From positions 1 through 64,000 of the forward strand of contig DASTWV010000023.1 in assembly GCA_035765775.1 (NCBI GenBank): DNA of 64,000 bases, given 5' to 3'. The notes beneath the pieces were generated by a model that saw only the letters and a program-made list of their open reading frames with translations, ran no database searches and was not told the DNA's origin. Of this stretch, positions 11,966 through 25,321 are shown one piece after another. The position numbers were made by a program, and so were the translations under genes. The stretch's first letter is position 1. The number at the start of each line of letters is the position of its first letter. The stretch comes from Actinomycetota bacterium (lineage in GTDB: Bacteria; Actinomycetota; CADDZG01; JAHWKV01; JAOPZY01).

Positions 11966-14376
11966 GAGCTCTGACGGCTTTCGGCGAGGCGGGTCACGTT
12001 GCAGACCTGGGCCCGGAGGGGGGAGCTGCCGCTGATCGGATCGCTCGGCGTCTGGCCGAGCACCAGGTTGAGGTTGGCGCTGCCCGGACCGAAGGGCGGG
12101 TAGCCCGGGAGGCCCAGCTCATCGCACGGCTCGAACCAGCCGTGCTGGGCGCACACAACGCCGGGGGCCAGCGTGCCGTTGAGCACGGCCCGCGCCCGGA
12201 CGCTGCCCTTGGGCGTGGTGATCTCTGCCCAGTCACCCTCCGCCAGGCCGCAGGCCGCGGCCGTGTCCGGGTGCAATTCGACCTCCGGATCTGGGGCGCG
12301 GCGGCGCAGGCTGGCAACCTGGCGGTGTTGGGTCTCGCAGAAGTGCACCTCCTTGGCGCAGGTGAGCACCAGCGGGAACTCCCCGGCGAGGTCGGGCCGG
12401 GAGCGGGGGCTCAACGCAGGCTCGGTGAAGGTTGGGAGCGGCGGCTGCCCGACGTCGAGGAAGCCCTCCACGTAGAGCTCGATCCGTCCCGTCGGCGTGG
12501 CGAACCCGGCTGGTACGCCGTTGTCGCCCGGTGCCGAGTACTTCCGATGGCGGGTCTGCAGGGGCAGGCGAATCCCCGCGGGGTTCCCGCGCAGCTCCCG
12601 CAGCGTCACCCCACTGGGTGCGAGGTGGTGCTCCCAGGCGGCATCGACGTCCCCGCCGAAGAAGTGCGCGCCCAGTCCGAGCCGGGTCGCCAGGTCGAAG
12701 ATGATCCCGATGTCCGAGCGGGCCTCCCCCACCGGCGCCACCAGGGGGGTACGCAGCTGCACCAATGACTGGGCCTCCTGCGAGACTTCGAAGCCGACCT
12801 TCAGGCCTTCGGCCTCGAAGGCACCGGTCACCGGCAGGACGATATCGGCTTGCTCGGCGGTCGGGCTCATGAACATGTCCAGGTGGACGTGGAAGTCGAG
12901 CGCCTGCAGCGCGTCCCGGCCTCGTGCGCTGTCGCCGTGGGCCATCAGCAGGTTGGACCCGAAGCTCACCAGTCCGCGCGCCCGGTAGGGCCGGCCCTCG
13001 AGGGCCGCCGTGTAGAAGTCCTCCCCGGTGGTAAACCCGAAGCGGGCCGGGCCGAGTGGCCGGTCGCCGACCCCGATCGCCTTGGCGTGTTGCGCCGGGT
13101 CGAGCAGCTCCATCCCGGTGATCGGGTTGGTCGGCACCGGTGTGAACAGGACGTTGCCGCCGGGAGCGTCCAGGCAACCGGTCAGCGCATACAGCACATT
13201 GATCGCCCGGATGATCTGGGTCGAACCACTGTGCTGCTCGAGGCCGCTCCAGGCGTAGAACGCGACGGGGCGGTTCTCCCACAGCACCTGAGCGGTGCGC
13301 TCGATTTCTGGGGCCGGTATGCCCGTGGCCACTTCCGCGACCATCGGCGACATCGCACGGCACTGCTCTGCGAGGAGGTCGAATGCCGGCCGGCAGGCCA
13401 CCGTCCCGTGGGTGGTGGGTACCTGCACGATGCCAGCAAGGGCGAGGTGGTCGTGGTTGTCCACATCCGTACCGCGGGCAGCCGGATCGAGGGTGGCCAG
13501 CTGATTGGTGACCTCGTCCCAGGCGACGTAGTGCCCCGGGCTTCCGCCGGCTGACACGTCGTCGCCCCGCAGGAACCGTCCCGTGTCGGTGCGGACGAGC
13601 ATGGGGGCGTTGGTCCAGCGGCGCACGAACGGCTCGTCAAACCAGCCGCGCTCGAGCATCACATTCGTGATCGCCAACGCCACCGCGGCGTCTGTACCGG
13701 GGCGCACCCGCAGCCACGGATCGGCCTTGGAGGCCAGCCCGGCGCGGCGCGGGTCGACGACGACCAACTTCGCACCGCGACGCAGCGCGTCCCTGGTGGC
13801 GATTGCGTGGGAAAGCCGCGACACCGACGGGTTGTAGCCCCAGAACAGGATGCACCCGGCCCGTTCAAGATCGGGCATGTACTGGCCGGGCACGGACGCC
13901 CCGTAGGTGTACAGCGACGCCAAATAGCGCCCCCAGCCGCACAACTCCATTGAGCTGAGGAAGTTCGGCGTATTGAATGCCCGCTGCAGCCGCTGGATCC
14001 AGTCGACGCAGTCGACGATCGCCGACGTCGACGGTGACACCGAACTGAACACGACCGATTCCGGGCCGTGGTCCCGGGCCAGCGCCCGAAGCCGGTCGGC
14101 GACGGTACTCAGCGCCTCCTCCCAGCCGATGCGCTGCCAGCCCGGGTCGGCCGCACCCTTCGCGGCGGTGCGCTTCATCGGGTAGCGCAAGCGGTCGGGA
14201 TGGGCGGCGATCTCCGGCGCCGCCTTGCCCTTGACGCACAGCCCCTTTCCCGTGGGATGCGCGGGGTCGCGGTCGAGCGTGAACGTGCCCTCGGTCACCG
14301 TCGCCCGCGCCCCACATCGGGAGACGCACAGCGGGCAGTACGTGGCCACCTCAGTCGCAGTGGGCGCCTCGGCCAT
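11962..14376 (-). CDS. Molybdopterin-dependent oxidoreductase (DMSO reductase family)
   Basis: Predicted 804 aa. The N-terminus carries a 4Fe-4S motif, CPLCVSRCGA followed by GLCVKGK, then the family blocks RLRYPMKR, GWEEALSTVADRL, YNPSVSRLSHAIATRDA, VVVDPRR and DPWLRVRPGTDAAVALA. The stretch FLSSMELCGWGR offers a Cys as likely molybdenum ligand; there is no UGA selenocysteine codon. The C-terminal dinucleotide-binding part ends with ARAVLNGTLAPGVV and FGPGSANLNLVLG. Overall it resembles formate dehydrogenase/acetylene hydratase-like catalytic subunits. No partner electron-transfer subunit or Tat signal is seen, so it is probably cytoplasmic with soluble partners. ATG at 14376 follows GGGAGGGAAC. 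The substrate is not predictable. Confidence 0.87.
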   Translation of the reverse strand: MAEAPTATEVATYCPLCVSRCGARATVTEGTFTLDRDPAHPTGKGLCVKGKAAPEIAAHPDRLRYPMKRTAAKGAADPGWQRIGWEEALSTVADRLRALARDHGPESVVFSSVSPSTSAIVDCVDWIQRLQRAFNTPNFLSSMELCGWGRYLASLYTYGASVPGQYMPDLERAGCILFWGYNPSVSRLSHAIATRDALRRGAKLVVVDPRRAGLASKADPWLRVRPGTDAAVALAITNVMLERGWFDEPFVRRWTNAPMLVRTDTGRFLRGDDVSAGGSPGHYVAWDEVTNQLATLDPAARGTDVDNHDHLALAGIVQVPTTHGTVACRPAFDLLAEQCRAMSPMVAEVATGIPAPEIERTAQVLWENRPVAFYAWSGLEQHSGSTQIIRAINVLYALTGCLDAPGGNVLFTPVPTNPITGMELLDPAQHAKAIGVGDRPLGPARFGFTTGEDFYTAALEGRPYRARGLVSFGSNLLMAHGDSARGRDALQALDFHVHLDMFMSPTAEQADIVLPVTGAFEAEGLKVGFEVSQEAQSLVQLRTPLVAPVGEARSDIGIIFDLATRLGLGAHFFGGDVDAAWEHHLAPSGVTLRELRGNPAGIRLPLQTRHRKYSAPGDNGVPAGFATPTGRIELYVEGFLDVGQPPLPTFTEPALSPRSRPDLAGEFPLVLTCAKEVHFCETQHRQVASLRRRAPDPEVELHPDTAAACGLAEGDWAEITTPKGSVRARAVLNGTLAPGVVCAQHGWFEPCDELGLPGYPPFGPGSANLNLVLGQTPSDPISGSSPLRAQVCNVTRLAESRQSS

Positions 14377-14534
14377 CAGTTCCCTCCCCGACCCGATATC
14401 AGGGGCTCGACCCTCCAGCACCGACCCTACAGCTACGGCGCCCGGCCCGTCGCCGCACCATGGATGGCAATGAGTTTCGCCGAGATTTCCCGTCTGTCTA
14501 GACAACCCTTATCACCGTTGGCGAGGAGGAAAAC

Positions 14535-15113
14535 ATGACCGCTACCTACACCTTCGACGTCTTCTCCAGCCTCGACGGCTACGGTTCCCACACCGGCAAC
14601 TGGGGCGGCTACTGGGGCAAGCAAGGTCCCGAGCTGCTCGACCGGCGGCTGGCGGTGTACGACTCGGAGCAACGGATGGTCTTCGGGGCCAACACGTTTC
14701 GGCAATTCTTGCGGATGCTGGCGCCGAGCACCGACGGATCCGAGGTGGGTGACCCCTGGGTCGCCCGGATGAAGAGCATGCCCGCAACGGTGGTGTCGAC
14801 GACGCTGGAGGGTCCCCTCGACTGGCCGGACGCCACCGTCGTGCCCGGTGACGCCGTCGCCATCGTCGCCCGGCTCAAGGAGGAATCCGGCGTGCCGTTG
14901 CGCTCCCACGGCAGCTTGTCGCTCAACTGGGCGCTGATGGCCGCCGGACTGGTCGACCTGGTCCAGGTGACGGTCTTCCCGGTGATCACCGGCCGGACGG
15001 GCACGGATCCGATCTTCCAGGGTGCGGGCGACTTCGACCTCGAGCTGATCGAGAGCCGGACGCTCGACGGCCACATCCAAGAGCTCATCTACCGGCCCAC
15101 CCTGCATCCCTGA
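14535..15113 (+). CDS. Dihydrofolate reductase-like (RibD C-terminal family) protein
   Basis: Predicted 192 aa NADPH-dependent reductase fold. It opens with TYTFDVFSSLDGYGS, the standard 'S.DG' strand-loop of RibD-C/DHFR-like proteins. It continues with RMVFGANTFRQF, PATVVSTTLEGPLDW, LRSHGSLSLNWALMAAGLVDLVQVTVFPVITGRTG, and ends in a strand typical of the family. Such stand-alone proteins are common in actinobacteria and mostly uncharacterised, so a true role in folate or riboflavin metabolism is not implied. ATG follows GAGGAGGAAAAC. It is divergent from the molybdopterin gene and followed by a strong bidirectional terminator. Confidence 0.88.
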   Translation: MTATYTFDVFSSLDGYGSHTGNWGGYWGKQGPELLDRRLAVYDSEQRMVFGANTFRQFLRMLAPSTDGSEVGDPWVARMKSMPATVVSTTLEGPLDWPDATVVPGDAVAIVARLKEESGVPLRSHGSLSLNWALMAAGLVDLVQVTVFPVITGRTGTDPIFQGAGDFDLELIESRTLDGHIQELIYRPTLHP

Positions 15114-15201
15114 GCATGGCATCCCGACCCGTCAAGCTGGCAAACTCGATCCGGCGGCCCCTGGTAGAGATGGTTGAATCGTTAGACTTCTAAGCAAGCA
15201 A

Positions 15202-15228
15202 CAAAAGCCGTGCCGAGCACGGCTTTTG
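15202..15228. terminator. Intrinsic terminator
   Basis: A perfect 12-bp inverted repeat, CAAAAGCCGTGC, loop CGA, GCACGGCTTTTG, supplies a GC stem with A and T tracts at its two feet. It can therefore act in both directions. It lies about 90 bp after the DHFR-like gene and before the secreted-protein gene. Confidence 0.85.
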
Positions 15229-15285
15229 TGCCCCACCTCGGCCAGTGCCCCCTCTCGTCACAGCGGCGGGCCATAGGCTGGGCGG

Positions 15286-16368
15286 GTGCGAACTGGGGCG
15301 CGGGATCGGCGACCTCTCGTGAGACCGTCGGGGATCTGGCACTGGATCGGGGCCCACAAGCTCATCGCGGCGGGTGAAGCCGCGGCCCTGCTGGTCTCCC
15401 TCACCCTGGTCGGCGTCGCCGGCTACGGCCGCATCCATGCCACCACGGCTGCGTCTGCCGCCCAGGCCCTGCAGCAGTTCCGGGCTCGAGCGGCTTCCCC
15501 TTCTCCGGCCCCGGAGCCGATCGCAACCGACACCGCCGACCCGACGCCTTCGCCGGCGCCCTTGTCGACGCCTTTGTCGAGCCCAGCTGCCGCTGGGGCC
15601 GCCACGAGCACGGCGGCGGCGGCCGCCCCTACTCCGCGCCCGGCGGTGGCGAGCGCCGCCACGCCCGCGCCCCCGCCCACAGCGTGCACCGGGTGGGACT
15701 GCCCCTACCTCGGCCCGCCCGCCCCCGGCGTCACCCAATGGTTCCAGTGCGGGCGCACCGATGGACAGTGCACCGGGGATTCCAGCGAGCCGCCGGCCAC
15801 CGAGACGTTTGTGATCCTGGTCCCCATCACCCGGGACCTCCCGCGCACCGGGGTGCGGACCATCACCCGGCTGGGGCCCAACTCCTGGAACATCACCCAC
15901 GTCTTTGCGAACGAGCACAGCGAGCAGGAGGACCTGAACGGGAGCGCCAGCGGGGTCACCAACAGCCGCCTCCTCACCGACATCAGCGTGCTGGGCACCG
16001 ACAACTCGGTCGCGATCAGGGAGGCGCCGCCCTTCCCGGCGGTCGTGCTCCCGCTGGCAGTCGGCAAGACGTGGAGCGGCCACTGGGACGATGCCAACGG
16101 CGGCGTCAACGCCGACTACGCCAACGCCGTCCTCGACCGCCAGACGCTCACGATCGGGGGGCAGCCGGTGCAGACCTGGGTCGTCGACACCCACCTGAAG
16201 CTACTGGGTCCCAGCACCCACGGCGACGTCGAGATGAAGTGGTGGGTGTCCCTCAAGTACTCGGAGACGGTGCAGGAGTACGAGACCCAGAACATCGTGG
16301 ACCCGCACGGGTACACGTACCAGTCCCAGTGGATGATCACCGAGGAGAGCCTCACGCCGGCGACGTAG
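15286..16368 (+). CDS. Membrane-anchored secreted protein, unknown function
   Basis: Predicted 360 aa. A single hydrophobic segment near residues 25-45 (LIAAGEAAALLVSLTLVGVAGY) follows a basic N-terminus, so it is anchored with the bulk outside. Residues about 65-130 are a Pro/Ala/Thr/Ser-rich spacer. The globular part begins at CTGWDCPYLG and contains FQCGRTDGQC, giving four Cys that could form disulfides. It is rich in predicted beta strands (TVRTITRLG-like, SWNITHVFANEHS, QPVQTWVVDTHLKLLG, MKWWVSLKYSETVQEYE). I do not recognise a family. The GTG start at 15286 has no strong ribosome site. It converges on the giant-protein operon. Confidence 0.7.
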   Translation: MRTGARDRRPLVRPSGIWHWIGAHKLIAAGEAAALLVSLTLVGVAGYGRIHATTAASAAQALQQFRARAASPSPAPEPIATDTADPTPSPAPLSTPLSSPAAAGAATSTAAAAAPTPRPAVASAATPAPPPTACTGWDCPYLGPPAPGVTQWFQCGRTDGQCTGDSSEPPATETFVILVPITRDLPRTGVRTITRLGPNSWNITHVFANEHSEQEDLNGSASGVTNSRLLTDISVLGTDNSVAIREAPPFPAVVLPLAVGKTWSGHWDDANGGVNADYANAVLDRQTLTIGGQPVQTWVVDTHLKLLGPSTHGDVEMKWWVSLKYSETVQEYETQNIVDPHGYTYQSQWMITEESLTPAT

Positions 16369-16453
16369 TCGCCCCCGGGGGTGGCGGCCTACGAGGTCGA
16401 TCCGCCGCCGAAACGCGGGCAAAGTGACCTCAACGATCTCCGAACGAACCTCG

Positions 16454-19400
16454 TTAGCACAGGGGCCCGATGGGGGTCAGGGGGGAGGCACGCAGGATCC
16501 GCCCGAAGGGGAACGTCGGCGGCGGGCGGCTGATGAAGGCCGCCTCTGTGGTGACGGTGCCCGGCGCCGGGCCGGCTGCCGCCTGCGACGCCGCCGGTGC
16601 GGCAGCCAGGGCGAACTCGCGGGGCGGGGGCTGCGTCGGCTGACCCGTGCCGCCCGGCAGCAGCTCGACAGCAAGGACGCTGAGCCCGGTCGACTCCGGG
16701 AGGTGGATGGCCTTGAGAAGCGTCGCCAGCTCGGTCTGCGTCCACACGCCCATGGCGATGCGGTCCCGTTGCGTGCGGGTCCCGAGGAAGTTCTTCAGCA
16801 GGCCCGCCACCTCGGCGCCCAGGCCTTCCCGGCCGGGACGGAGGAACACACCGAGCGAGGTGGCGAGCAGCACGTTGCGCATCGAGAAGCCGTCCGCCTG
16901 CACCACCTGGCCGTAGACGAAGAACCACATCTGGGTCTTCGGTGGGTCCAACGGCGTCACCAACCGGGTGCCGTTGAGGACCGGGGTGGCATATGGGGCG
17001 GTGGCGATAACCAGGCTCGGCGGCGCCGGGACGACCTGCAGGCCGCCGATGATGCCGGGGTTGAAAGCGATCGGCCCGACCGGTGCGAGCGGGGTGGCGC
17101 TGGCCGCGGGGGGCTGGGCTGCAGCCACCGTGGGGGGCTTGGCCACCGATGCCAACCCGGGTACCACTGAGGTCACCGGCCGCACTTGGGCTGCGGTAAT
17201 GGCACTCAAGGCGGCCGGGTTGACGGCCGCCCGTACCGCGGGCGAGGAGGTGGCGGCGGGCGCCGCCGGAGCGGCCGGACCAGCAGCCGGCGGGGTCACC
17301 GAGATGATGGCGTCCAGCGGGAACGACACCGCCGAGGCCCGGAGCTGGGAGATCAGCGACGGCGTCGGCACCGCCGGCGGGTAGGTGTAGCGCCCGGCCC
17401 GGCAGGTCAACGCCGGCGCGGGGTGCTGGACGCCCACTACCCGCAGGGGCGTGCCGAAGCGGGCGTTGGCGGTGGACCACCAACGGAGATCCCCGATCGG
17501 GCCGGCGTGGCCCACCCGCAGCTCGTAGGTGTAGAAGCCGAACAGCTCGGGATCGTCGGCGGCCACGCCCGGGGGCAGCGGCAGCAGGAAGTGCCGGTTC
17601 GACGTCGACGACGGGATCAGCTGGGTCATGGCGTTGATGCCGCCCCGGTCGTCGGTATCCGAGGGCACGACCACCCGCACCAGCTCGGGGTCGAGCGCCA
17701 GCGGGGGGTCCCCGGTGGTGGCGGTGAGCGACGGCAGGGCGTCATACAGCAAGGGGTCAGCGCCATGGGCCAGCACCCGGGCGAAGAGGGCGTCGCCCAC
17801 CTGGTTGTCGATCGGGTCCACCAGCTCCACCCACAGCGACCGCTGGCGCTGGATCGTCGAGGCGTAGCCCGGCCCGATCTGGTACGGCGTCAGGGCGATC
17901 CCCACCGAGGCGATAGCGGGCACCTGAGCGGGCGGGATGGCGATGGGCAGGCGGAGATCCAGCGGTGCCCGGGCGAGGTCCGCCCCGGTGATGGGTGGCA
18001 CCACCGTCGTTCCCGCCAGGGGCGCCGGGGCTGCCGGGTCCGCCGGGTCCAGGGGTGGCCCGGGCGGGGTCAGGGTCGGGTTCACGAACCAACGGTGCTG
18101 AAGCGACTCGGGGAACGCCGAGTCGGTGTTGGGCTCGTGGGGATCGACGGCATCCAGGAACACCAGCCGGGTGCGTCCCCGGGCGGCGACTGTGGGGTTG
18201 GTGGTGGCTGCTGCGCCCAGCACCCGGGGCACCATGATGGCGCCCACGGCGGCCGGCGGGGGTACCGAGGCCTCGGTGTCGGTGGGGCCGCCCCGCAGCA
18301 CGATGAAACCCGCACCGTCGAGGCCGTCCCAGGTCCAGTCCCGTTCCAGGTCCACCATGATGGCCACCACCCACTGCTTGAGCAGGTCGCTGGTGGCCCC
18401 GAAGGTCAGGGTCTCGGAGTCGGCCGACAGGGTGGTCCGCAACCCCTTCGACGCCCCGAAGACCACCCGCTGGCCCGGCGGGCTGGTGAGCGAGTTCCCG
18501 TTGGCGGCCACCCCCAGCTGTTCGGCCAGCTGGGCCACCAGGGAGGGGGCGGCGACATTTGCCGGCCGGCGGAACAGGTACCCGGTCACCGGCTCGTTGG
18601 CATCGGCCTGCTGCAGGAGGGCGGGCTCGTTCACCGGCTCGGCCCGCACCCCGATGGTGACCGCCATCGTGGGCGTGGCCTCGGGGGCAAAGTAGCCGGT
18701 GGTGTCGGCCCGCAGCCGGGCCCGGATCTTGATCTGGACGTCGCGGCCCCGGGGGATCAGCAGCGGACCGGAGGCGGCCTGCTCGGCGGCCCAGCCCTCG
18801 ATGTTGGTGGCATCGACATAGGTGACCGGCACCGTCGTCCCGGGGTCGGTCTGCAGCGGAGCGGCCCCGGTTAGGGCCTCCAGGGTCCGGGTGGCGTGGT
18901 ACAGGGACTGGAACGTGGCACCGCCGGTGTCGTGCAGTGGGTGGCGCACCAGCACCTCGATCTCGACGGCGTCCACGTCGGGGTCCGGCAGGCCGGCGAC
19001 GACGGTGGGCACCGGCGGCTTCGGCGAGCCGGGATGGGCCGCGTGCGCGGCGTTGGCGGCCTGGATGGCCGCCACCTGGCTGGCCGCGGTGTCCACCAGG
19101 GCGCCCACTATGGTGCTGCGGGCGGCGGCCGTGGACCCCAGTCCGGTGTAGAGAATCTCCGGGTAGCCCATGAGGGGCCGGCTGATCGTGAGCGCGGTAG
19201 GCGTCGCCAGCACGGACCCGGTCGCCGGGCCGGCAGGGGTCTGCACCACGATGGGCGCCTTGGGCGGCACCATGCGCTGGAACGTCTGCAGTGCCGTGGC
19301 GTTGGGCGGCGGGTTGATCGGGGCGTCAACCGGGTCCGGCCCGCCGCCGGTCAGGTCGGAGAGCCGGACCCGGAAGGCGTAGAGGTGCCCGTAGGACAGC

Positions 19401-20734
19401 AGCGTCGTCAGGCCGACGGCGGTGCGGGACGACGGGGGCACGGCGGTGCCCCGGGTCAGTGCCAGGGGCACGTGGTCCGGCTCGCACAGCGACCCGCCCC
19501 GCCAGTTGGCGAAGTAGCGGGGCAGCCAGGCGTCGGTCACCGCCGGGTTGTTGGGCCGGGTCGAAGCGGGCTCGATCGACAGCTCCCCGGTGAAGGTGCC
19601 CAGCGATCCCACCTGCGTGGTGACGCTCTCGAGCGACTGCCAGGCCGGGGCGGCGGGGGGCCCGCCGGGCGCGGCCGGGGTCACGTCGGCCACATCGACC
19701 CGGTAGCCCAGCACGCCGAGCGGGGCGGTGGGCTGCGGGTTGCCTGCGCGCTGCGCGTCCAGGAGCGACAGCTGGTCGTTGTGCCAGGTGACCACCTGCT
19801 CGTCGTCCCATCCCACCTGGATCCCAAGGTCGCTGGCGGGGGCCAGGGAGCCGTCGCCCACCGCGGCGTCGGTGTTGGTGGGCTGCGAGCAGTGCACCAG
19901 CTTGGCGAAGCCGTCGGCGTACTCCTCGGCCACGGCGAAGGCGCGGTCCGGGGGCGGGGATGCCCCGTCCACCACGAACTGCTGGGCGGCGAACACGGCC
20001 CGGGCAGTGGCGTCCAGCGGTGGGATGCGGGCGGCGTGGGCCCGGATCGATCCGGCCACCGAGGCGCCGGCCACCGCCCATGGGTCCGCCGGGGCCAGGG
20101 TCACGAAGACCCACCCGCCCCCGGCCAGCGCCGCCGCCTGGCCGGCGGGCAGGGTCACCGTGAGGCCGTAGAGGATGCCGAGCTTCGTGGCCAGGACCGG
20201 CTGGCGCAAGGCGTAGGAGATGATCTCGCCCCAGGAGATGGTCGAGGGCGGCGTCTGACCGGTCACCGCGGGTTCGTTGCGCACCTCGCAGCCAAAGTCG
20301 TCATCCGTGGTGGTCAGCACCCCGGTGGGCGGGCCGCCACCGGCGGCCAGGTACGACGGCGGGAGCGCCTTGCGCACCCGAGCCGTGACAGGCGCCGCGG
20401 CCGCCGGGGGCCCGATGGTCTTGCCGGTGGCGGCCACCGAGGTCTGCAGAAGGTGGAACGTGGCCACCGGGTCCGCCGCCGGCGAGGTGACACCGGGCGT
20501 GACGGTGAACAGCCCGGGCGCGGCGACGCCGGGCAGGGCCGCCACGGTCGGCTGCACGTGGACGGCGAATGTGGGCTTGCCGGCGGCGAAGGAGGGGGGC
20601 GGCGGGGCGGCGGCGATCAGCGGCCCGGCAACCGGGTCCACGCTGGGGATCAGCAGCACGTTGAGCGTCAGCGTCCCCGTGCCGTCCCAGTGCTGGGGGA
20701 AGGTCATCATCACCAGGTTCGGCGCGCTCGCCAC
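16454..20734 (-). CDS. Giant protein B (1426 aa), unrecognised
   Basis: Predicted 1426 aa, Ala/Pro/Gly/Val-rich, with no signal peptide, membrane helix or known catalytic motif that I can see. It starts VASAPNLVMMTFPQHWDGTG after AGGAGGG. Residues about 330-480 look like a beta-sandwich region (GWDDEQVVTWHNDQLSLL, LGYRVDVADV, LYAFRVRLSDL). Another part reads VEIEVLVRHPLHDTGG. Pro/Ala-rich linkers separate segments near residues 1180-1270. The C-terminal about 120 residues (MWFFVYGQVVQADGFSMRN onward) form a separate small domain and the end is again Ala/Pro-rich. It is the second gene of an operon, 10 bp after giant protein A. The composition suggests a large, multi-domain, beta-rich structural or binding protein; this is inference. 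Confidence 0.75.
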   Translation of the reverse strand: MASAPNLVMMTFPQHWDGTGTLTLNVLLIPSVDPVAGPLIAAAPPPPSFAAGKPTFAVHVQPTVAALPGVAAPGLFTVTPGVTSPAADPVATFHLLQTSVAATGKTIGPPAAAAPVTARVRKALPPSYLAAGGGPPTGVLTTTDDDFGCEVRNEPAVTGQTPPSTISWGEIISYALRQPVLATKLGILYGLTVTLPAGQAAALAGGGWVFVTLAPADPWAVAGASVAGSIRAHAARIPPLDATARAVFAAQQFVVDGASPPPDRAFAVAEEYADGFAKLVHCSQPTNTDAAVGDGSLAPASDLGIQVGWDDEQVVTWHNDQLSLLDAQRAGNPQPTAPLGVLGYRVDVADVTPAAPGGPPAAPAWQSLESVTTQVGSLGTFTGELSIEPASTRPNNPAVTDAWLPRYFANWRGGSLCEPDHVPLALTRGTAVPPSSRTAVGLTTLLSYGHLYAFRVRLSDLTGGGPDPVDAPINPPPNATALQTFQRMVPPKAPIVVQTPAGPATGSVLATPTALTISRPLMGYPEILYTGLGSTAAARSTIVGALVDTAASQVAAIQAANAAHAAHPGSPKPPVPTVVAGLPDPDVDAVEIEVLVRHPLHDTGGATFQSLYHATRTLEALTGAAPLQTDPGTTVPVTYVDATNIEGWAAEQAASGPLLIPRGRDVQIKIRARLRADTTGYFAPEATPTMAVTIGVRAEPVNEPALLQQADANEPVTGYLFRRPANVAAPSLVAQLAEQLGVAANGNSLTSPPGQRVVFGASKGLRTTLSADSETLTFGATSDLLKQWVVAIMVDLERDWTWDGLDGAGFIVLRGGPTDTEASVPPPAAVGAIMVPRVLGAAATTNPTVAARGRTRLVFLDAVDPHEPNTDSAFPESLQHRWFVNPTLTPPGPPLDPADPAAPAPLAGTTVVPPITGADLARAPLDLRLPIAIPPAQVPAIASVGIALTPYQIGPGYASTIQRQRSLWVELVDPIDNQVGDALFARVLAHGADPLLYDALPSLTATTGDPPLALDPELVRVVVPSDTDDRGGINAMTQLIPSSTSNRHFLLPLPPGVAADDPELFGFYTYELRVGHAGPIGDLRWWSTANARFGTPLRVVGVQHPAPALTCRAGRYTYPPAVPTPSLISQLRASAVSFPLDAIISVTPPAAGPAAPAAPAATSSPAVRAAVNPAALSAITAAQVRPVTSVVPGLASVAKPPTVAAAQPPAASATPLAPVGPIAFNPGIIGGLQVVPAPPSLVIATAPYATPVLNGTRLVTPLDPPKTQMWFFVYGQVVQADGFSMRNVLLATSLGVFLRPGREGLGAEVAGLLKNFLGTRTQRDRIAMGVWTQTELATLLKAIHLPESTGLSVLAVELLPGGTGQPTQPPPREFALAAAPAASQAAAGPAPGTVTTEAAFISRPPPTFPFGRILRASPLTPIGPLC

Positions 20735-20744
20735 GGCGTCCCTC

Positions 20745-23700
20745 CTACAAACTGACCGTCGTGGAGAAGCCCCACGAGCCGTCGAAGTCGATGTTGATGA
20801 TCCAGCAGATGGAGATGTGGATCCCCACCGCCACGTCGCCGGAGAGCAGTGCCTGGGTGGGATCGGTACCCGGCTCCAGTGCGATGTCGAGGGCGGCGCT
20901 GAGCGTCAGCGACGCCGATGCCAGGCCCCCGAGCACGTCCACCTCGGCCTTGCCGGTGAGCATCAGCCCGATGGTGATGGCGGCGCTGGCGATCTCCAGG
21001 CTGATCGACACCACAATCGAGGCGCTTCCCGAGGCGATGCCGACGTCGATGGCCAACCCCAGCCCCAGGCCGGCCTCGATGTAGACATCGATGGCGCCGT
21101 GGTCGACCCCGAGGACGATGGCCCCCGTCCCGGCCAGCGGGTCGACCGTCCACTGGAACGGCTCCTCCTTGGAGCCGATGCCCACGTGGAAGGCGGCGTC
21201 CGTCGGGATGGTTGCGGTGAAGCCCAGGTCGATGCCGAGGTCGGTGATGTCGCCGAAGCCCAACGGGATGGTGGGCAGCGTGAAGCTCTGCAGCACGCTG
21301 AGCTGGTTGCCGGTGAAGCCCACGTCGAGGTCGGCGTCGCCGCCCAGGTCCTTCGCCAGGTCCGAGAGGCCCGAGAACAGGTCCTTCACGGCCGACAGGG
21401 CGCTGCCATAGAGCACAGCCAGCGGGTTGGGGGCGTTGCCCGCGCTGTCGGGCAGGCTGGTCGGGTCGGGCAGTGGCCCGACAAAGCCGGGCTGCATCCC
21501 GGAACCCGCCTGGAACCCGCCGCCGATCTGCAGGAGGGGGTGGAGCCGAACCCATCCACCACCGCCTGCACGCTGATGTTGGTCAGCGAGATGGCCCAGT
21601 TCGGGGCGCCCGGGGTGGCGTCCAGCTTCAAGATGGCGTGGGCCTTCGTGGTGGTGCCGTCGCCGTCGGTGGCTTTGTACGACAGCACCAGGTGGACGAT
21701 GCCCAGGTCCAGCAACGTCCGGTCGGGCTGGTCGATGTCCCAGCTGTAGGTTTTCGAGAACCCGTCGGCCTGCAGCGGCACGGAGTCCAGGTCGGGGATC
21801 TGCAGGATGGACCCCAGGTCGGGGAACAGGCCCCCGACGCCCAGCAGCGCGCCGACATCGGCCAGGCTGGGCTTGTGGGCGAACCCCATCTTCTGGCCGG
21901 TGTCGCCCACCAGGGGGTGCTCGAAGAGCGTCTTGGCCGTCCCCGTGCCCTGCAGCAGGCTGTAGAAGGTGGCCGGGGCGTCGGGTGACTGGGCGTCCTC
22001 CGGGTCGAGCAGCCGCCATCCCTGGTGGTAGGTCTCGGCGCCGGTGGGCGGCGTGGCGGGCGGCAGGCCTCGGGTCAGCGGGACCGGGGTCCCCTGCGGC
22101 ACACCGGTGGGGGCCTTGGCCGTGCTGACCCGGCGGGCCACGCTCCACTGGCCGTCCTTGGGCAGGCGGGGGGCACCGAACAGGGCCACCTGCAGCATGT
22201 TGTTCGTGCTGGTCACCCCGGCGGCGAAGGAGGCGAGGGTCATGGTGAACTGCTGCGGGCCGGTCCCGCCCACCCGGGCGATGCCCGCCGTGGTGCCCGC
22301 CACCCGGTGCACCTGCTGGAGCATGCCGATGATGTCGGCCGCGGACGGCGGTACGGGCGGGACCCGGGGAGCGGGGGGCGGCGGTTGCACGACGGGCTTC
22401 ACGGCCCAGCCCTGGATGGCGCCGGCCGGGATGGCGCCCAGCCCGGTCTTCCCGTTGGCGTCCACCTTGAGGCCGGCGTCCAGGAAGACCGTGGCGTCGA
22501 AGACCACCGGGGCGTACTCGCGGCCGTTGAAGGTCACCACCGCGGTCCCCGGGAAGGTCAGGTTGTGGATGGCGTCCAGCTTCACCACGGGCCGGGCGGC
22601 CATGAGGGTCGAGGCGTCGAGCAGCTCGAAGGCGCCCGCGCCGACAGCCACCCAGCCGGTGTCGTGGCGGATGACCTCGCCGCCGTCGGAGCGGTCGAAG
22701 ACCACGGTGCGCTGGATGCGGATGCACCACGGCAGGATCCAGGTCTGGAACTCCACCAGCTCGTGGGCGGTGCGCCCGAGGAGGACGTCGAAGTTTGCCC
22801 GTACCACCCCCACCACCTTGGGATCGGTCCAGCTCCAGTCCGAGAACATCGACGTGCCGTAGCCGGACAGGTCGATGCGGCCGACAGGGATGCCCCCCTG
22901 GTTGCCGCCCGGATTGAAGGCCTGGTTGAAGAAGTCGGCCGGTGCCAGCTGGGCCGGCGTCGCCCCCATCACCAGGGATCCGTAGGAGTTGTCCGCCAGC
23001 GTCGGCGAGAAGGTCCCGACCGTCGCCGACCCGGGCAGCGTGGGCGTCGCCAGCAGGGGCGAGGCGGGCGGCCCCGGGTCGGTGGCGGTGGCCCGCACCG
23101 ACAGCACCGCCGCCCCGGCCATGCCGGCTTCCGGGAACTGCAGCTTCGGCACCGCGTAGGTTGCCGGTCCGGTACCCGCCGCCGGGGTGCCGGGCTGGCG
23201 GCCGGGGCCGTCCACCAACCGGGCCGTGATGCCGAAGGGCAGGGTGAAGGTGGCCGCCGTCGGGTCCTTGCCCGCCAGGCCGGTGTAGGTGTCCAGCACC
23301 TGCAACGGGAACAGCGGCACATCGGTGCCCGTGGACACCAGGAACGTCGTCGGGGTGCCGTCGGTGGGCGAGGAGGCGTCGAACCACTGCGGGAAGGCCT
23401 GCGTGCCGTCCACCACCGGCTCCCAGGAGATGCCGGGAACCGTGAACACCATCGTGTCGGCGCTGGGGGCCTGCAGCTCGATGCCGTGGAAGCTGAGCTG
23501 CGGTACCCCGGCCCCCAGGACGGCCACCCCCCACTGGCTCCCGAACGACGACACATCGAGGAGGGCGAAGCCCACGCCGCCGACGCGTTCGGTGCTGGCG
23601 AGGGTGGCATCAGGCCCCGGAGCCGGGGCCGGGGCTCCGACCAGGTTGGCGCCCGGCACGGTGGCCGCCGGGGAGCCCGCTGCGGTGGCTCCGCCCGCGG

Positions 23701-25276
23701 CGGCGAACACCCGGCCCACGGCCAGGTCCGAGGGCCGGATCAGGGCAATGCTCAGGGCCGCGGGGCTGGTGGGGCCGATGGCCGACCAGGTGACCAGGGC
23801 GGCCACGCCCACGATCTGCTCGGTGCGGGGACTGGCCAGGTAGGCGGCGGCGTAGGGGTGTGGCAGCGTCGGGATGACGACCTCGGCCGGGAAGACGACC
23901 TCCGCCCGGCCCGACAGGGTGGGCGGGCCGCTGCCCGGCACCAGGGTGCCGTTGACGAAGAAGCCGTTGGGGGTCCCCACCGGGATGATGGCGTTGGGCG
24001 TGTCGATGGCGATGCTGGTCTCGGCCTTGGGCGTCAAGGGGGAGCCGATGTCGACCGTGGTCTTCGCCGCCGTCAGCGTGCGCAGTTCGAGGGCGTGCCC
24101 GGCCAGGGCGATGCGGCTCCCGTCCGCCGCCACCGGCTGGTCGACGACCGCGCTGAGGAGGCCGCCTGCCAGCACGGTCTCCGCGGTGGGCGTGAAGCTG
24201 AAGCCGATGGCGGCGCCGATGGGCAGGTCGAGGGTGACCTCGGGCTGCGGGCGGGGAAGGTCCGGGAAAGCCGCATTGGCGGCCAGCAGCGGGTGGCCGG
24301 GACTGCTCCACAGGCGGTACCGCCGGGCAGCCCGACCCTGGAGGGCCGTGAGGCCGGCCAGGCGCTGGGGCGTGAGGGCGATGACCGCCCCGGCCAGCCG
24401 GGTGGGGTGCGCGACCCCGGCCAGCTGCACCGTGAGCCCGGGTCCGGCACCGAAGGCGGCGGCCCAGGCCTCGGCGGGCTCGGGCAGGGTGGCGGGCGTG
24501 GCCGAGCCCAGCTCCACCACCGGGAAGAGCAGCCCACCGGTCAGCACCGGCGCCGAGCCGCCCAGGCCGAACTCGGCCGACGCCGCCCCGGTGGGGGCGA
24601 AGGTCGCCGGCGACGGCGTGCACGGGATGGCGGCGAACGGGGTGGGAAGATCCAGCTCGGCGGCGGCCGCGCCCGGTTTCGGTGCCAGGGCCACGGTCTG
24701 GCCGTACAGGGCAGCGGTCGCCTGGCCGGTGGGCAGCACGGTGGCCGAACCGGCGCCCGTCCCCGGAGCGAACGTCACCGTGGCGCCGGGGAACGCGGTG
24801 AGCTTGGCCCCCTGGAAGTCCCTGCCGATGGCGTCGCCCGCGGGCGCGGCCAGCGGCGTGCTGCGGGAGGTGACCGAGAGGGTGAGCGTCGCCGCCGGGT
24901 CCAGCGTGATGCCGGCGGCACCGAAGGTGACCGCTCCCGCCGTCTTCAAGGTGGCGTGGGCGAAGGGGACGCCCACCAGGGCGGTGCTCGAGGCGAAGGC
25001 GGGGCCGAGGAGCGAGGCGTCGAACCACAGGGTGCCGCTGGCGAGGGTCACGCTTGCCGAGGTGGGGGCCTGCTGGCCGCCCCCGGTCACCACATAGCCG
25101 ATGGTCGTCCCGCCCCGGACCAGGGGCGTGGTGACCGGTGTGAAGTGGAGCGGGAACGGGATGGGCGTGAAGACCTGCTGCAGGCTGGCAGCCGCCGGGA
25201 GCGAGGTCCGGATGCCCGCCAGCTGCCCGGCCAGGTTCCTGATCGGCTGTGCGGCTACGCCGTCGATCGGTTCCAT
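20745..25276 (-). CDS. Giant protein A (about 1510 aa), frame interrupted near 21536-21540
   Basis: Two minus-strand frames join into one protein of about 1510 aa. The first runs from ATG at 25276 (MEPIDGVAAQPIRNLAGQLA) to VQAVVDGFGSTP. The second continues LLQIGGGFQAGSGMQPG and ends FDGSWGFSTTVSL at 20745. The junction is a run of five C on the coding strand (21536-21540); one added C restores a continuous frame. A 1-nt deletion, an assembly error or frameshifting could explain it. The protein is rich in Ala, Gly, Pro and Val, with beta-type sequence throughout. The last 250 residues alternate small and hydrophobic residues (AIDVGIASGSASIVVSISLE). No signal peptide, transmembrane helix or catalytic motif is evident. 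It is the first gene of an operon with giant protein B. Family unknown. Confidence 0.65.
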
Positions 25277-25321
25277 CGCTCCTGCCTTCCGCACCCCCGC
25301 CCAGGGCCGCGATGGCTCGCC

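Follow-up and report, generated by a model that had tools for sequence, protein, structure and literature searches.

A cross-phylum family of paired giant proteins with twin-arginine signals on one partner of some pairs and a possible hitchhiker route of export

Export of a heterodimer with the signal on only one partner is known for the twin-arginine (Tat) pathway (PMC10924467). Here we compare with such hitchhikers, and with Tc toxins and Rhs proteins, AsmA/TamB-like and apolipoprotein-type sheet proteins and CWB2 wall-anchored surface proteins, an operon of two giant genes, A and B, located in the window, the 64,000-nucleotide stretch of Actinomycetota DNA (contig DASTWV010000023.1) that we analysed as a whole. 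Literature searches returned no description of the A–B pair, and where the genes are annotated the entry reads 'hypothetical protein' only. Searches of Pfam, NCBIfam, PHROGs, PADLOC and PDB sequences gave no match to window A or B. When the family was scanned against Pfam one by one, as 38 members (18 relatives of A and 20 B proteins), nothing appeared beyond CWB2 on one of the B proteins and, on single A proteins, two matches below threshold, and profiles of A and B built from the whole set gave only weak matches against the PDB, one of them to FN3con (E=0.17).

A Tc/Rhs-like toxin complex might be suspected, as A and B are giant beta-rich subunits with adjoining genes. However, models of RHS/YD repeats, SpvB, TcdB and other toxins in Pfam and NCBIfam found nothing in the window proteins, the 38 family members are likewise free of Tc/Rhs-type Pfam matches, and no Tc sequence came up in the PDB searches, which makes a toxin complex of this kind highly improbable. 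The window pair also lacks both the signal peptide and the SLH or CWB2 anchoring domain that mark S-layer or cell-wall proteins. No phage or tail family of PHROGs matched and no homologue was found in phage records or IMG/VR, nor does any PADLOC model of known anti-phage defence match the pair. With no strong match to Rhs/Tc, S-layer or any other known family, the pair is indeed unrecognised, as the preliminary description of this DNA had it.

Organization of the A–B operon

Genes A and B form a tight minus-strand operon in which they lie 10 bp apart. Gene A (20745–25276) extends over ~1510 codons, with one frame change read through, from an ATG at 25276, preceded by an AGGAG-like ribosome-binding site, to a TAG at 20747–20745. 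Gene B (16454–20734, minus strand) encodes 1426 aa from a GTG start at 20734, and its Shine-Dalgarno sequence, AGGAGG, overlaps the stop of gene A. The operon is isolated, since its neighbours on either side (an MscS-type channel, a RibD-like protein, a methyltransferase, a molybdopterin oxidoreductase and others) are unrelated single genes. An isolated operon of two genes had been described previously at these positions, and two adjoining minus-strand genes were confirmed there by a plausible ribosome-binding site for each and by high third-position GC; the promoter candidate that had been assigned to the operon was not recovered, as no sigma-70-like promoter was found. On the plus strand, a 360 aa protein (window 15286–16368) with one N-terminal hydrophobic segment, a Pro/Ala/Thr-rich linker and no Pfam match converges on gene B.

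Gene A is interrupted in its reading frame. The open reading frame that begins at 25294 stops at 21386; a different frame, open from 20745 to 23534, encodes the C-terminal domain of A. We located the change at 21536–21547 on the minus strand, as a one-base change at a run of five C (21536–21540; the C-run spans ~21,536–21,541). Third-position GC is at least 0.90 in phase 3 up to ~21,700 and then moves to another phase past the C-run. Because A changes frame once at the C-run near 21,540, 1510 aa is its read-through length only. Thus, of the two sizes given earlier, ~1510 aa for A and 1426 aa for B, that of B holds and that of A does not hold as one open frame, which ends at 21386. The A gene of a near relative, L002, reads through the equivalent site uninterrupted, and in L003 and L004, too, A is one unbroken ORF. 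We considered a programmed frameshift in A and rejected it in favour of the likelier alternatives of an assembly error or a real lesion, since the window and Tistrella mobilis differ in where the frame changes, and L003 and L004 show no change at all. The change in Tistrella mobilis pTM1 (L005, ~13,560) is a separate one within A, elsewhere than in the window. In A. vitis (L033, ~16,900) it is B that is split across two frames.

Conservation of the pair across phyla

Relatives were found by tblastn and genome searches and then by profile searches. Near relatives, with 35–41% identity to window B across its full length, are encoded in Candidatus Microthrix UBA4742 (L002), Microvirga terrae (L003), Candidatus Chlorohelix allophototropha (L004) and Tistrella mobilis (L005), and the copies of L003, L004 and L005 sit on plasmids. 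The profile of these near relatives gave weak matches in other Actinomycetota genomes, and these led to a much wider set with members in Streptomyces, Cupriavidus metallidurans CH34, Rhizobium, Diaphorobacter, Sinorhizobium, Agrobacterium vitis and Ruegeria. A–B carriers are thus found in Actinomycetota, Chloroflexota, Alpha- and Betaproteobacteria, sporadically and in many cases on plasmids, and the A domain occurs in ~2–3% of the sampled Actinomycetota genomes. The length of A reaches 3311 aa (Ruegeria). Common to the whole set are only the last ~250 residues of A, together with B. As the N-terminal part of A has no detectable homology between the near and distant groups, A consists of a variable head and a conserved amphipathic C-terminal domain.

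We further asked how regularly the two genes occur together, by a six-frame profile search for A and B over 25 loci, the window included. A was present in 24 of the 25 loci, and each of these 24 has B as the next gene on that strand, immediately downstream of A, with A–B gaps of -5 to 42 bp (21 loci). The exception, L006, has fragments of B alone, spread over two frames, and appears to be a remnant. At least 11 of the paired loci were reached via A alone and about a dozen via B alone. Distance matrices of the A C-terminal domain and of B, based on 21 A sequences including that of L029 read in the wrong frame, correlated with r=0.67, a value that none of 2000 permutations attained. Profile-profile comparison (hhalign) joined the near to the distant group (E=5.5e-15 for A and 2.8e-15 for B) and the distant group to the giants (E=1.1e-39 for A and 9e-56 for B), and A-against-B controls were negative. 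The window pair shares the arrangement of the family: its A has the amphipathic beta-domain at the end, and B follows directly. The constant order, the short gaps and the correlated divergence strongly support the earlier suggestion that the pair is functionally coupled. Taken together, A–B are no local oddity but a conserved family that spans phyla and is often borne on plasmids, and from the gene pairing we infer that A and B are in physical contact.

Composition and fold of A and B

Ala, Pro, Gly and Val make up 44–46% of A and B, in agreement with the richness in these residues reported before, and part of this is owed to a GC content of 73%. The low charge of the two proteins is a truly unusual compositional trait, with D+E+K+R at 11.6–12.9% as compared with 17.5–24.5% in eight other ORFs of the window. 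The N-termini of A and B revealed neither a signal peptide nor a helix of strong hydrophobicity, in line with the earlier statement that signal peptide and membrane helix are absent.

The N-terminal part of A (21548–25276, minus strand; ~1240 aa), which has no signal peptide, is common to the four near relatives only. The C-terminal amphipathic beta-domain (20748–21533, minus strand; ~260 aa) is kept in all A relatives, and that of the window matches the distant profile with E=5.8e-14; the strand periodicity of the domain gave z 6–7.4. The alternating pattern noted at the end of A was clearly reproduced: the strand-period hydrophobic moment of the last 130 aa reached z = 7.4 against shuffles, and this part has no helix signal. 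When alignments are averaged, a beta pattern is seen in the C-terminal domain of each of the three relative groups (z 6.3–7.8) and in the N-terminal part of the near group (z 4.9), and the strand signal of B is weak (z 1.3–2.3). Strand domination, which had been ascribed to both proteins, is therefore supported for A and only weakly so for B.

Within B (minus strand), the most widely kept part is a core at 19160–19642 (~residues 365–525), for which distant genomes match positions 327–491 of the B profile. It contains an FnIII-like motif, YGHLYAFRVRLSDLTGGGP, and its FnIII likeness is weak, the FN3con match (profile against PDB sequences) being the one mentioned above. An Ala/Pro-rich linker at 17050–17415 (~residues 1110–1230) is missing from the relatives. 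Columns that never vary among 20 B sequences hold Gly, Trp, Tyr, Arg and Asp, and no clear active-site set stands out among them.

AlphaFold models, each made from two input sequences, were of low confidence, with mean pLDDT values of 39.6 (A C-terminal domain) and 28.4 (B core), too low for an A–B interface to be seen. The low-confidence A model ends in five successive strands of 14–16 residues (local pLDDT ~44–61). These consecutive strands, the strong alternation at strand period that each of the three A-domain groups shows and weak, non-significant Foldseek neighbours that include the sheets of MTP and apoB-100 would be in accordance with a carrier of lipid or another hydrophobic ligand, in which the amphipathic sheet of A forms a groove, as in AsmA/TamB-like or apolipoprotein-type sheets, that B covers or docks onto. 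However, Foldseek gave no match at E<=0.001, its top matches, also not significant, were actin-capping proteins sharing a common meander only, the confidence of the model is too low, and no AsmA-type Pfam family matches in sequence. We therefore consider a carrier improbable.

Export signals and comparison with known systems

A Tat-type signal, with an RRxFL-type motif and a hydrophobic stretch, opens 9 of 23 A proteins, those of the Actinomycetota loci L012, L013, L019 and L030 and of the Alphaproteobacteria loci L032–L036. None was found on window A, on its four near relatives or on several distant A proteins. No Tat signal was found on any of 21 B proteins, the single flag lying upstream of the start codon of window B. 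In L012, B has no signal of its own and ends in three CWB2 cell-wall-binding stretches, which make sense only outside the membrane, and the signal is carried by A. Directly downstream of the A–B operon of the S. meliloti plasmid pC lies tatA (L036 18275–18442). The Tat signal on A and not on B, the CWB2 stretches of L012, this tatA and the known hitchhikers together suggest that A and B of the Tat-bearing members associate in the cytoplasm and leave it jointly.

We tentatively propose, as a reading that falls a little short of an even chance, that A and B are two subunits of one large complex and that Tat-bearing lineages export the pair by the hitchhiker route. A and B would each fold in the cytoplasm, the amphipathic beta-domain conserved in A would be the docking site of B, and assembly of the complex would precede export. 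Where A carries a Tat signal, the folded pair would then cross the membrane via the hitchhiker route and end outside the cytoplasm; in one Actinomycetota lineage the CWB2 repeats on B would tether it to the wall. In the window lineage, where A has no recognisable signal, the complex would stay inside or exit by another route. Against Tat export, a folded complex with a 3000-residue subunit would be extreme. Against a wall tether, CWB2 is found on B in one lineage, and in L030 it is on a separate neighbouring ORF. It is possible, albeit doubtful, that the family as a whole represents cross-phylum two-subunit giants that are Tat-exported folded in many members and have a plasmid-spread surface or contact function. 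Candidate roles of such a complex are surface contact, hydrophobic ligand binding, protection and antagonism.

The preliminary description had suggested an intracellular structure, a particle component or a contact-dependent factor. The last is conceivable, whereas an intracellular structure or particle was not supported, given the Tat signals on A of relatives, CWB2 on one B and the lack of any shell or phage-tail match and of any homologue in the phage and viral collections searched. In the most explicit version of the intracellular reading, the two proteins would be a cytoplasmic two-component scaffold or particle, and the Tat signals would be derived in other lineages. Window A and its near relatives without an export signal agree with this, and the very large size and low charge of the proteins would suit a structural role. 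However, Tat signals occur in Actinomycetota and Alphaproteobacteria relatives alike, one B bears cell-wall repeats, Pfam and PHROGs gave no shell, tail or encapsulin-type match, and searches of phage and viral collections gave no hit, so that we regard a scaffold as unlikely. An exported or surface complex fits the relatives better than an intracellular particle.

The genes around the pair differ from locus to locus. In L030, the pair adjoins an ORF (13895–17935) whose domains are CWB2, bacterial Ig and cadherin-like, which hints once more at a cell-surface setting. Two genes come after the pair in an Actinomycetota locus (L011 14244–17406), one for an unknown protein of 317 aa and one for a protein that has four hemopexin repeats. 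Near various other pairs there are a patatin-like phospholipase, a zinc-dependent phospholipase C and an M35 peptidase (L017 15271–17784; L035 1–1536 and 20579–21175), and the pair of Agrobacterium vitis is beside dpdE/dpdF (L033 19403–24684), named after 7-deazapurine DNA modification. Catalase genes are found near two loci (L004, L005), outside the operon. A conserved third gene was not found, as patatin, phospholipase C, hemopexin, tatA, CWB2 and M35 were each seen at one locus.

The sporadic spread across distant phyla, the conjugative plasmids and neighbours such as dpdE/dpdF, restriction or methylase, CRISPR type I-D and toxin-antitoxin genes might point to an antagonism, defence or surface-exclusion system borne by plasmids or genomic islands. 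Such neighbours are common on plasmids anyway, however, no PADLOC model matches and no neighbour gene is common to the loci, which makes this explanation, too, improbable, slightly more so than a ligand carrier.

If the Tat-bearing members are exported as we propose, they would test how large a cargo the Tat pathway can take. With as many as 3300 residues, A subunits would exceed its usual cargo by far. In any case, a pair that has stayed together in three or more phyla, covers up to ~15 kb and has no Pfam family is a sizeable blind spot. Direct functional testing is possible, since the carriers Cupriavidus metallidurans CH34, Sinorhizobium meliloti, Tistrella mobilis and Streptomyces are cultivated.

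Among described systems, CWB2 wall-anchored surface proteins resemble the family in the B of L012, in one lineage, and CWB2 is absent from the window. Tc toxins and Rhs proteins are likewise giant beta-rich proteins in tandem, whereas A–B have neither RHS repeats nor a match to these families. AsmA/TamB-like and apolipoprotein-type sheet proteins share with A the long alternating strands in a conserved domain; they have no sequence match to A, and the fold of A is modelled at low confidence. Unlike the Tat hitchhikers, that is, periplasmic Ni-Fe hydrogenases, formate dehydrogenases and PaoABC, A–B have no cofactor enzyme domain, their subunits measure 1000–3300 aa and window A has no signal. 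Like these hitchhikers, A and B are encoded by adjacent genes, and where a signal is present (9 of 23 A, no B) it is on one partner only.
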